From Candidatus Baldrarchaeota archaeon (GTDB lineage Archaea; Asgardarchaeota; Baldrarchaeia; Baldrarchaeales; DXJG01): a stretch of 64,000 bases of DNA. Within the stretch, counting starts at the first letter, position 1; each line of letters starts with the position of its first letter. A model generated the notes under the pieces. The model was not told the origin of the DNA. It did no database searches and saw nothing but the letters and a program-made list of their open reading frames with translations. Shown piece after piece: positions 27,597-38,468 of this stretch. Both the position numbers and the translations under genes were made by a program. Where the stretch lies: assembly GCA_019056805.1 (NCBI GenBank), contig DXJG01000009.1:239473-303472 (forward strand). Reading direction: 5' to 3'.

Positions 27597-28934
27597 TTGG
27601 GAAGAGTTGGCGGAAAGTTATTTATAGTTTCGGCTACAACACTATATCGGGTGCTGAGAGTGGATAGAGTCGTTGTTAAGGCTCTGAAGCTCAATCTACT
27701 CCCTCTGTCAAAGATGAAAGAACACTTGTTAGCTGAATTATTCAACTCCGTCCTTCGCTGCTGTAACGATGTTTTAGCAATTGCCAAATCTAAATCTCCT
27801 AAAAACTTCGCCATTCTACATAACACTTCCTATCCTATTATTAAGCAAAAATATGACTTACATTCTCAAATCCTCGTTGACTGCATCCACCAAGCTTGGG
27901 AAAATCGAAAGACAAATCCGGATAAGTTCAAGCAAATTCCTGTCAGATTCAACGTCCCTCGTAGTGGAAAATTTGGTGAAACTAAGCGTGGTAATCCTGT
28001 TGTGATTATTGCATCGTTTAACGGAAATGGAAGAATTGCCCTTCCAATCAAGCAAGATGGAGCCTATAAGAGATTTGTTAAACACATTAAAAATGGCTGG
28101 AAATGCACCCAATTTAGACTGCACAAGCAGAATGACAATTATGTCGTTATCGCTAATCTGAGAAAGAAGTTTAGGGTTAAACAAAAGTATAAGACTGTTG
28201 TAGGGGTTGATGTTAACAGCGGTAGTTTCGCTGTCACAGTTTTGAGAGGTGACAGGAGAGTTTTGAAGCAACTTTATCTGGGACAAGACATCTGGCACAA
28301 ACAATGGAAGTTCATGAAGAGAAGAAGCAAACTTCAAAGTTACGCAGACAAGGGGAGTAAGAGGGCACGGCGTGCCCTCAAAAGAATGAAGCACGATGAG
28401 AGAAACTTCGTCAATACGAGAATATGGCAAGTAAGCCATGAAATTGTTGAAATAGCTTTGAGATACGATGCTGTAATTGCTATTGAGAGGCTTAAGAACC
28501 TCAGAAAGAGGAATGGAAAGGGCAGAAAACCTAAGACTGCAAACAGAAAGATTCATCGCATTCCATTCGCCAAGTTCAGAATGACAATACGATCTGTTGC
28601 GTGGCAGAATGGAATTGAAGTTATTGAAGTTCGAGCTACAAAGACTTCGCAGAGATGTCCAAAGTGTGGTTATACGAGTAAGAAAAACTGGGTCTTCTTC
28701 AATGGAAAGCGCAAGTTGTTCAAATGCAGGAAATGCGGTTATGAGGCAAATGTGGATAGGACTGCCTCCCGAAACATTGCAACTCTGGCTCTGGAGCGGG
28801 GTTTGACTTCTTTTGAAACCACTCTCAGCACCCAGCCCCAGAGTTCCAGAGCCGGCGGGGATGTCAGCCCCCGTGTCCGGCTCGATGACGGAAGATGGTA
28901 TCCTCAACCCTCCGAGAGCAAACTCCCGTCTTAA
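27597..28934 (+). CDS. tnpB: TnpB (IS605 OrfB family RNA-guided nuclease)
   Basis: VVGVDVNSG (RuvC Asp), AVIAIERLKNL (Glu), CPKCGYTSKKN...CRKCGYEANVDRTASRNIA (Zn finger plus Asp). All three catalytic acidic residues present. True start probably near LRVDRVVVKALKL. Confidence 0.94.
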   Translation: MGRVGGKLFIVSATTLYRVLRVDRVVVKALKLNLLPLSKMKEHLLAELFNSVLRCCNDVLAIAKSKSPKNFAILHNTSYPIIKQKYDLHSQILVDCIHQAWENRKTNPDKFKQIPVRFNVPRSGKFGETKRGNPVVIIASFNGNGRIALPIKQDGAYKRFVKHIKNGWKCTQFRLHKQNDNYVVIANLRKKFRVKQKYKTVVGVDVNSGSFAVTVLRGDRRVLKQLYLGQDIWHKQWKFMKRRSKLQSYADKGSKRARRALKRMKHDERNFVNTRIWQVSHEIVEIALRYDAVIAIERLKNLRKRNGKGRKPKTANRKIHRIPFAKFRMTIRSVAWQNGIEVIEVRATKTSQRCPKCGYTSKKNWVFFNGKRKLFKCRKCGYEANVDRTASRNIATLALERGLTSFETTLSTQPQSSRAGGDVSPRVRLDDGRWYPQPSESKLPS

Positions 28935-36436: not shown

Positions 36437-36747
36437 TCAAACACCATCTAACGGCGTGTTCCAAACAAAGTAAGTTCTTAAAAACTAAAAACAGACAAAT
36501 ACAACCCACAAAATCCCAAAACACTACAAGATCAGACAAATAAACAAAAAACAAATTTCATAAACTTCTGATACACCACACCGATAAATAAACCCAAAAA
36601 CCCAACACTACTGCACATAGAAACCTCTCCAAAAAGAATTGTAAACATATCGTCATATCTAAAATCTAATCAATGTAAAACCAAAAATCCTCTCTTCCTA
36701 TCAAATCATTATTTAAACTATGACATTATTAAGAAAAAGATCATAGT

Positions 36748-37173
36748 CTAACTTGATACTAACAGCCATATTGCAACACATCCTAAAGCTATACCCAACA
36801 GTTTCTTAGAGCTCATAGATTCACCAAGAAAAACCCAAGAAAACAACACAAGAAAAATAAACATTAAAACAGACATAATAGCCTTAGCACGACTAACCTC
36901 AATATAACTCAAAGGAATACTATAAAGAAGAGTATTTACAAACCCAATAGCAAAAGCAAAACCAACACAAAGAGTAAAAACAGCAAAAACAGTAAACCTA
37001 AAATGCAAAATATCAAACAAACCAGTCCTTAAAGCCTTAAACAAACTCTCAACCTCCAACTCACCAATCTTCGAAACACCCCACTTATAAACAACATCAC
37101 CAACAGCATAACCCAAAGAAAGCAAACACAAAAACAAATAAACAAACCTCAACTCCACAGCAAATCCCTCCAA
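36748..37173 (-). CDS. EamA/DMT-superfamily small transporter
   Basis: Four hydrophobic helices; SYIEVSRAKAIMSVLMFIFLVLFSWVFLGESMSSKKLLGIALGCVAIWLL. Likely starts at GTG (ELRFVYLFL) about 37158. Confidence 0.7.
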   Translation of the reverse strand: MEGFAVELRFVYLFLCLLSLGYAVGDVVYKWGVSKIGELEVESLFKALRTGLFDILHFRFTVFAVFTLCVGFAFAIGFVNTLLYSIPLSYIEVSRAKAIMSVLMFIFLVLFSWVFLGESMSSKKLLGIALGCVAIWLLVSS

Positions 37174-37189
37174 CCTTTTTTAACTTTAA

Positions 37190-37432
37190 CGACAGGAAAT
37201 TCCCCTTCTGAGGGGATGAAAGCCGATATACTTATATATTCCCTACCAAATATATTTTGTGTTGAGTCTCCTAGGGCTGGGACGGCCCGAAGTAACGCCT
37301 GTGCGTGGTCGATGATTAAAGGAGACCCGACATCCGGCACCCCTACCTAGGTTAGCCGAAAGGGCTGCCGATGAAGGCAAGTGCCGATGGATGAAGCAGG
37401 AAGCCCCACGCGTAGGCGAAGGGCAGTTCACC
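37190..37432 (+). mobile_element. Short IS605-derived palindrome-flanked element (PATE-like), no intact ORF
   Basis: Left palindrome TCCCCTTCTGAGGGGA (37201-37216); right end GGAAGCCCCACGCGTAGGCGAAGGGCAGTTCACC; internal remnant RAGTARSNACAW matching TnpB C-terminal tails. Confidence 0.55.
37260..37432 (+). ncRNA. Orphan omegaRNA-like structured RNA with its own TATA box
   Basis: TATA-like CTTATATATT at 37231-37240; GTCTCCT (37266-37272)/AGGAGAC (37320-37326) enclose GGGC/GCCC and ACGC/GCGT hairpins; downstream GGCA/TGCC and AGCC-GAAAG-GGCT; ends GGGCAGTTCACC. Confidence 0.5.
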
Positions 37433-37496
37433 AACAAAACAACCTAATAAACCTTAATACACACAACATCCAAAACTTAATATAACCACCCGAATT

Positions 37497-38468
37497 TTAA
37501 CCATGTGCTTTTCTAGATTTTTCTTTAAACCACTTTATAGTCCTTAACAACCCTTCCTTTAACTCTACCTTAGGTTTAAAACCTAAAACTTCCCTGGTTC
37601 TACTAATATCAGCGCAACTATATCTAATGTCCCCGGGACGGAGATCAGAATAAACAGGTTCAACATTAACACCTATCAACTCAATAAGAGTTTTAGCAAG
37701 CTCATTAATACTCGTACACCTACCACTACCAACATTAAAAACACCATCAACAGCATTCTTCGAAAACATAGCCAACATAGTAGCTTCAACAACATCTTCT
37801 ACAAAAACAAAATCCCTCACCTGATTACCATCACCAAAAATAACCGGAGGCTCACCCCTAAGTAACCTATTAATAAAAATAGAAATAACACCACTATAAG
37901 GACCATAAACCTGTCTAGGACCATAAACATTAAAATAACGCAGAACAACAGCCTCCAAACCATAAACACGATAAAAAACCCTACAATAAAACTCTCCAGC
38001 CAACTTAGAAACAGCATAAGGAGAAATAGGATCCAAAACATCATCTTCACACCTAGGAACACCGCGGCCCTCACCATAAACAGCACAAGAACCAGCAAAA
38101 ACAAAACGCCTAACACCCGCATCAACACAAGCTTTCAAAACATTCAAAGTACCACCAACATTAACATCCTCCACCAAAACAGGGTCCTCAACAGAAAGAG
38201 GAACACTAACCACAGCAGCCAAATGAAAAACAACATCAACCCCCTCAACCGCCTTCCTGACAACATCAAAATCTCTCACATCACCATGAATCAAAACAAA
38301 ATCATCACGACCTAAATGATGTTTTAAATTTTCCATTTTACCAGAAGAAAAATCATCTAAAACAATAATCTCAAAACCCTCAGAAACTAACCTATCAACC
38401 AAATGACTCCCAATAAACCCGGCACCACCAGTAACCAAAACCCTAACGCAACCACACAATTCCATCAC
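37497..38468 (-). CDS. NAD-dependent sugar-nucleotide epimerase/dehydratase (GalE-like)
   Basis: VLVTGGAGFIGSHLVDRL, YAVSKLAGEFYCRVF (YxxxK), RYFNVYGPRQ. Confidence 0.94.
   Translation of the reverse strand: MMELCGCVRVLVTGGAGFIGSHLVDRLVSEGFEIIVLDDFSSGKMENLKHHLGRDDFVLIHGDVRDFDVVRKAVEGVDVVFHLAAVVSVPLSVEDPVLVEDVNVGGTLNVLKACVDAGVRRFVFAGSCAVYGEGRGVPRCEDDVLDPISPYAVSKLAGEFYCRVFYRVYGLEAVVLRYFNVYGPRQVYGPYSGVISIFINRLLRGEPPVIFGDGNQVRDFVFVEDVVEATMLAMFSKNAVDGVFNVGSGRCTSINELAKTLIELIGVNVEPVYSDLRPGDIRYSCADISRTREVLGFKPKVELKEGLLRTIKWFKEKSRKAHG

Follow-up and report, generated by a model that had tools for sequence, protein, structure and literature searches.

Within the 64 kb window (the whole stretch of DNA that was analysed), a GC-rich element is set in AT-rich intergenic sequence and has an opposite-strand gene on either side, an EamA-like transporter ORF on its left and an NAD-dependent epimerase, outside the element, on its right (Table 1). 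The original prediction had placed an element at 37190-37432. The element itself stands, and its exact boundaries are corrected to 37184-37431, with TTTAA directly ahead. As had been predicted, it lacks a nuclease: no such ORF overlaps the element, and neither a TnpB ORF nor a PF07282 match lies nearby.

Table 1. Features of the miniature element and its surroundings, in window coordinates.
Feature	Position	Strand	Basis or remark
TnpB 8 kb away, not likely partner	27597..28934	+	Pfam Cas12f1-like_TNB; visual comparison of the 3' end
EamA-like transporter ORF, next to the left end	36748..37173	-	Pfam EamA; G001 and G002 lack it at the syntenic locus
TTTAA target-site/TAM motif, directly left of the element	37179..37183	+	Read from the sequence
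Whole miniature IS200/IS605-type element	37184..37431	+	248 bases, without nuclease ORF
Left-end hairpin TTCCCC...GGGGATGAA	37198..37217	+	Sequence; motif ATGAAAGCCGA common to L201
TATA box TTATATAT	37232..37239	+	23 nt from the end of TTATAT to the predicted RNA start
Predicted omegaRNA scaffold	37261..37431	+	5' end inferred from TATA; covariance model (37271-37431) and fold
Outer stem, 5' arm GTTGAGTCTCCT, 3' arm AGGAGACCCGAC	37261..37272 with 37320-37331	+	Single-sequence prediction
Hairpin 1, GGGCTG-GGA-CGGCCC (GGGCTGGGACGGCCC)	37274..37288	+	Same as L021 TnpB omegaRNA hairpin; covaries
Pseudoknot, CCTG with CAGG	37298..37301 with 37397-37400	+	Pair kept in 13/13 sequences
Long stem ATCCGGCAC / GTGCC(GAT)GGAT, variable insert inside	37332..37392	+	Fold; place matches stem 3 of relatives
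CAGG, right-end hairpin GCCCC...GGGC, terminal AGTTCAC	37397..37431	+	Aligns to the right ends of TnpB elements
Putative guide, flanking DNA CAACAAAACAACCTAATAAA	37432..37451	+	Placed by analogy with TnpB omegaRNAs (PMC8612924, PMC10278001)
NAD-dependent epimerase	37497..38468	-	Pfam; 83% identical orthologues in congeners

The left palindrome and the TATA box of the original prediction are both present, as is the right end GAAGCCCC...GGGCAGTTCAC. A relative, L201, has a TTTAACTTT start, as does the window element. IS605 elements of Sulfolobus islandicus have TTTAA and TTTAT as their LE-associated TAMs (PMC10640517). The left ends of the window element and L201 align with a score of 18, against at most 15 in 2000 mononucleotide shuffles, and on this alignment we take them to be homologous. 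By BLAST, the right end shares 77-84% identity with TnpB loci of this genome and its genus, at their 3' ends. Near-terminal hairpins and a conserved right terminus, together with the absence of terminal inverted repeats, characterise the element as a non-autonomous member of the IS200/IS605 group, as in the palindrome-associated transposable elements (PATEs). For the TATA box, a TATA-like hexamer at the distance seen ahead of the predicted RNA start occurs at about 1% of window positions.

The highly paired core that had been proposed holds in part: GTTGAGTCTCCT and AGGAGACCCGAC do enclose the hairpin GGGCTGGGACGGCCC, whereas the second enclosed hairpin is weak. The single-sequence fold has moderate stability (z -2.15, with 4 of 200 shuffles equally good). 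The outer stem and the long insert of the window copy have no counterpart in relatives, and the 5' arm of the outer stem lies upstream of the TnpB-homologous segment and is not derived from TnpB. That segment, previously described as a TnpB C-terminal signature, does align with L021, an intact TnpB of the same genome, at its 3' end, but it had been read in the wrong frame. RAGTARSNACAW is to be replaced by GLGRPEVTPV, where the matching DNA in L021 reads GLGRPLAPVE.

A covariance model (R2) was built from 12 sequences, the window copy excluded. Searched against the 64 kb window, it retrieved the window copy at 37271-37431 (+) with 45.6 bits and E 9.3e-9, the sole significant match; the runner-up had E 8.3. 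When the window copy is added to give 13 sequences, hairpin 1 and the right-end stem covary, with four of the six pairs of hairpin 1 altered on both sides, and the covariation score of the whole structure is 0.382 against 0.111 for shuffled alignments (0 of 500 as high). In the CCTG/CAGG pseudoknot, the 23 Hermodarchaeota copies show a single compensatory change. The scaffold and its structure are thus homologous to the omegaRNA of an intact TnpB, and the pseudoknot and right-end hairpin lie ahead of the putative guide as in TnpB omegaRNAs. What differs is that the RNA is neither encoded with nor overlaps a tnpB gene, the nearest cognate TnpB being 35 kb off.

In a search of the window against Rfam, only chance matches were obtained and no family was found; RAGATH-18 (RF03064) did not match, its gathering score not being reached. 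Relatives of the element match RAGATH-18 at 26-29 bits (best 29.4), below the cutoff of 44.9. The absence of an Rfam family from the window would be expected if an unrelated structured RNA merely happened to be placed between transposon ends. We consider this extremely unlikely, given that direct alignment and the covariance model tie the window copy to TnpB 3' ends and that its relatives match the TnpB-associated RAGATH-18, albeit below threshold.

The window belongs to an Asgard archaeal genome (G000), which contains seven TnpB (PF07282) matches. When the scaffold is compared with the intact TnpBs of this genome, L021 (401 aa, C17:310645-311850, outside the window and 35 kb from the element) proves to have hairpin GGGCTGGGACGGCCC and right-end words identical to those of the element. 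L021 keeps the catalytic motifs GID, IED and DRD, as judged by eye, and the shared words make it the likely partner of the window omegaRNA. Use in trans by a TnpB, such as the one 8 kb away, had been suggested; trans use is plausible, but the 8-kb TnpB is not the likely partner, its 3' end being unrelated. This TnpB (window 27597-28934) and the one at G000:C11:45251 are related and have in common a different 3' end, with a CCCGTCTTAAGACGGG-type right hairpin, which presumably represents another omegaRNA class within the genome.

No Y1 TnpA (PF01797) was detected in G000, which is 91% complete, and none was found in the Hermodarchaeota genomes, which are incomplete; PF01797 was matched in G009, G012, G024, G038 and G081. 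Two Hermodarchaeota genomes, G046 and G019, have 13-32 TnpB matches and many stand-alone RNAs with Y1 TnpA undetected, which their incompleteness may explain.

At the syntenic locus of two congeners (G001 and G002) the element is absent. There, about 194 bp stand in place of the window interval 36451-37526 (about 1.07 kb, with the element and the EamA ORF) in both genomes. Either the insertion is specific to this lineage or both congeners have lost it, which counts against an old domestication. The EamA ORF may have arrived with the element or earlier. Neither congener shows a clean empty site that corresponds to the window copy; the right flank has a 25-nt match to G002 (92%) in A/C-rich sequence. 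The 20-nt guide yields one self-match and one match with 3 mismatches in its own genome; with the reversed-pattern control, 3 matches were obtained. The guide thus has no second chromosomal match beyond chance.

The position of the element between two opposite-strand genes, with transcription directed toward the 3' end of the epimerase gene, could suggest a domesticated regulator of its transporter and epimerase neighbours, or a TldR-like guide RNA for a dead TnpB. We regard either role as very improbable. Both congeners do without the element, the candidate TnpB has the catalytic residues D, E and D (by eye), and the guide lacks a second genomic match above chance. The regulatory role put forward in the original prediction thus finds no support.

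The design recurs in other Asgard genomes, and there is good support for an orphan omegaRNA that retains promoter, structure and right end. A first model, which included the window copy, gave at least about 150 matches in 34 of the 227 genomes of the phylum that were searched, with up to 15 candidates scored in each genome. In eight genomes we positioned the omegaRNA matches against PF07282 matches: at least 57 were found, of which 39 have no TnpB within the cut-off of 600 bp, 16 are joined to a TnpB and 2 are situated at the edge of a contig. Among the 39 there may be decayed relics comparable to L124. This second omegaRNA-like match without TnpB in the window's genome (G000:C18:39361-39489, -) has a degenerate hairpin and right end and looks like a decayed relic.

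Three further nuclease-free families have a common layout of left hairpin, TATA box, constant spacer, RNA and right end, the distance from TATA box to RNA being 22-24 nt in most copies. From this layout we interpret the elements as PATE/MITE-like IS605 elements with a promoter-driven omegaRNA, which is probably used in trans by TnpB. In a separate observation, left-end-like and right-end-like segments of L202 (1373-1448, 1664-1705 and 2869-3056) have dozens of short matches in G038, G017 and G031, which suggests large IS605-type or PATE families in that genus. Viral contigs gave no match to the two patterns searched.

Family A, from Hermodarchaeota, was aligned from 23 stand-alone copies. Mean pairwise identity is highest in the last 7 nt (1.0), the TATA box (0.87) and the RNA (0.82), and lower in the right hairpin (0.63) and the left end (0.56); the spacer, though constant in length, falls to 0.36, and the 5' and 3' flanks to 0.26 and 0.25. 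The TATA box lies 22-24 nt ahead of the RNA in most copies; in a few, the simple regular expression chose another A/T-rich hexamer as TATA. A conserved box at a constant distance across an unconserved spacer looks like a promoter. The structure measures are mostly above all 500 shuffles and collapse once the arms are slid; as related sequences may beat shuffles without any structure, the sliding and the pairs changed on both sides weigh more. For the 5' stem two models fit, a hairpin with outer stem and a long-range helix. Hairpin 1 of family A differs from that of the TnpB omegaRNAs in the same genomes, and no orthologous copy is shared by two Hermodarchaeota genomes among the loci compared. 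Taken from this alignment, the pattern speaks for purifying selection on the RNA in relatives of the same layout.

Family B (G009, G031) comprises stand-alone copies with another 5' domain, in which TTTAAA lies 23 nt ahead of GAATTGAGC, as counted on the sequence. G009 also encodes an intact 393-aa TnpB (C96) whose scaffold is nearly identical to those of its stand-alone copies, and this makes family B in G009 the strongest case for a putative use in trans. In G031 (C102), a degenerate, TATA-bearing stand-alone GGGCTGGGACGGTCC copy (L029 2281-2360, +) adjoins another stand-alone element, in divergent orientation to it.

Family C (G024, G038, G009, G012) has nine copies across three families of the phylum. 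These have a larger 5' domain and no overlapping TnpB, with the TATA box 22-23 nt upstream (20 in one). In ten pairs of their consensus fold both sides have changed and the pairing is kept; one divergent sequence accounts for most of this. Here, a filled site in G024, TTTTCAGGAAGTTAT|element|TAACCCAATTTATATCC, can be set against an empty site in G038, TTTTCAGGAAATTCTTAACCCAATTTATATCC. The element lies 3' of a short motif, the junction falls exactly after TTCAC and there is no target duplication, a junction that reads as that of IS200/IS605 transposition. In the empty allele the guide directly follows the target motif, with one base different (TTCT for TTAT). An archaeal TnpB tolerates many TAM changes (PMC10640517).

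The anatomy of these elements, their homology, recurrence and structural conservation, and the mobility of relatives are established; for the window copy itself, this applies to anatomy and homology. The window copy occurs once and lacks an orthologue. This would also suit a plain decayed relic, in which an internal deletion of a TnpB element kept the ends and the 3' RNA region by chance and left them inert. Part of the TnpB tail persists, the genome has another decayed relic at C18:39361, and the Haloquadratum PATEs include such deletions (PMC3119063). However, hairpin and pseudoknot are intact, as are both ends and the spacing of the promoter; the 5' arm of the outer stem has no TnpB origin, and relatives of the same layout are under purifying selection. 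We thus consider an inert remnant rather unlikely, and the selection seen on the RNA of relatives makes "relic", the term first applied to the element, too weak a word. The window element is in our judgement probably a non-autonomous, PATE-like miniature IS200/IS605 element that has lost tnpB and kept a complete omegaRNA gene with its own archaeal promoter.

If the window copy is such a miniature element, transcription would start near 37261 and cross the scaffold into the flank, the flanking part becoming the guide. A TnpB acting in trans, most likely L021, would bind the RNA and cut a site with TAM and guide from which the element had been excised or was absent. For the window locus, this element-free allele would be TTTAA joined straight to CAACAAAAC. 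Cutting of element-free sites would favour retention of the element, while its mobilisation would require a Y1 TnpA in trans. TnpB has been described as a homing-like nuclease that prevents element loss, with an RNA guide that ends in the flanking DNA (PMC8612924, PMC10278001). An element without tnpB that keeps its RNA would retain this benefit if a TnpB is available in trans, and RNA and promoter would consequently be better conserved than the left-end hairpin.

These findings suggest that selection on IS605-type elements may maintain the guide RNA as its unit, and not only the nuclease. If so, they would offer a direct test of the separation of guide RNA and nuclease gene on the path from TnpB to Cas12. 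They also supply omegaRNA scaffolds that are supported by covariation and have a dedicated promoter, and empty sites provide a simple genomic test for TnpB-driven retention in trans. Tentatively, and with somewhat less than even confidence, we propose that Asgard archaea harbour several families of mini-transposons that have no nuclease and conserve, as their cargo, a TnpB guide RNA that is driven by a promoter, acts in trans and has additional 5' domains. One TnpB would then serve many independently targeted guides, and the elements would be either a selfish parasite of TnpA and TnpB or a natural forerunner, with multiple guides, of a CRISPR-like arrangement.

Among known systems, stand-alone, trans-acting omegaRNAs of IscB were reportedly described by Altae-Tran et al. 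in 2021. They resemble the Asgard elements in that the guide RNA is encoded apart from the nuclease, and differ in belonging to IscB, not TnpB. For TnpB, we found no stand-alone omegaRNAs described in the literature searched, which gave partial coverage and left most subscription journals outside. The omegaRNAs or reRNAs of TnpB and the archaeal sotRNAs likewise have a scaffold that ends at the right end and a guide taken from the flank; in contrast to the RNAs described here, they overlap tnpB at its 3' end, and processing of the tnpB mRNA can give rise to them (PMC8612924, PMC10278001, PMC12558985). TAMs of the TTTAA/TTTAT type are a further likeness to TnpB omegaRNAs (PMC10640517), while the missing tnpB, the dedicated TATA box and the new 5' domains set the Asgard elements apart. 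RAGATH-18 is also a family of TnpB guide RNAs but belongs to IS607 instead of IS605; 64% of its RNAs adjoin an IS607 TnpB and about a third do not (PMC11061315). The closest known kind are the PATEs of Haloquadratum, which are likewise short, IS605-derived and transposase-less, have near-terminal palindromes, and lack terminal inverted repeats and target duplication (PMC3119063). One of them, HqIRS71, even retains part of the C-terminal coding region of the transposase (PMC3119063). Unlike the Asgard elements, in which RNA and TATA box are best conserved, PATEs are described in that study without mention of a conserved, promoter-driven omegaRNA (PMC3119063). Judged from their sequences, the Asgard elements thus add to the PATE kind an omegaRNA cargo that is promoter-driven and conserved in structure and that has 5' domains specific to each lineage.
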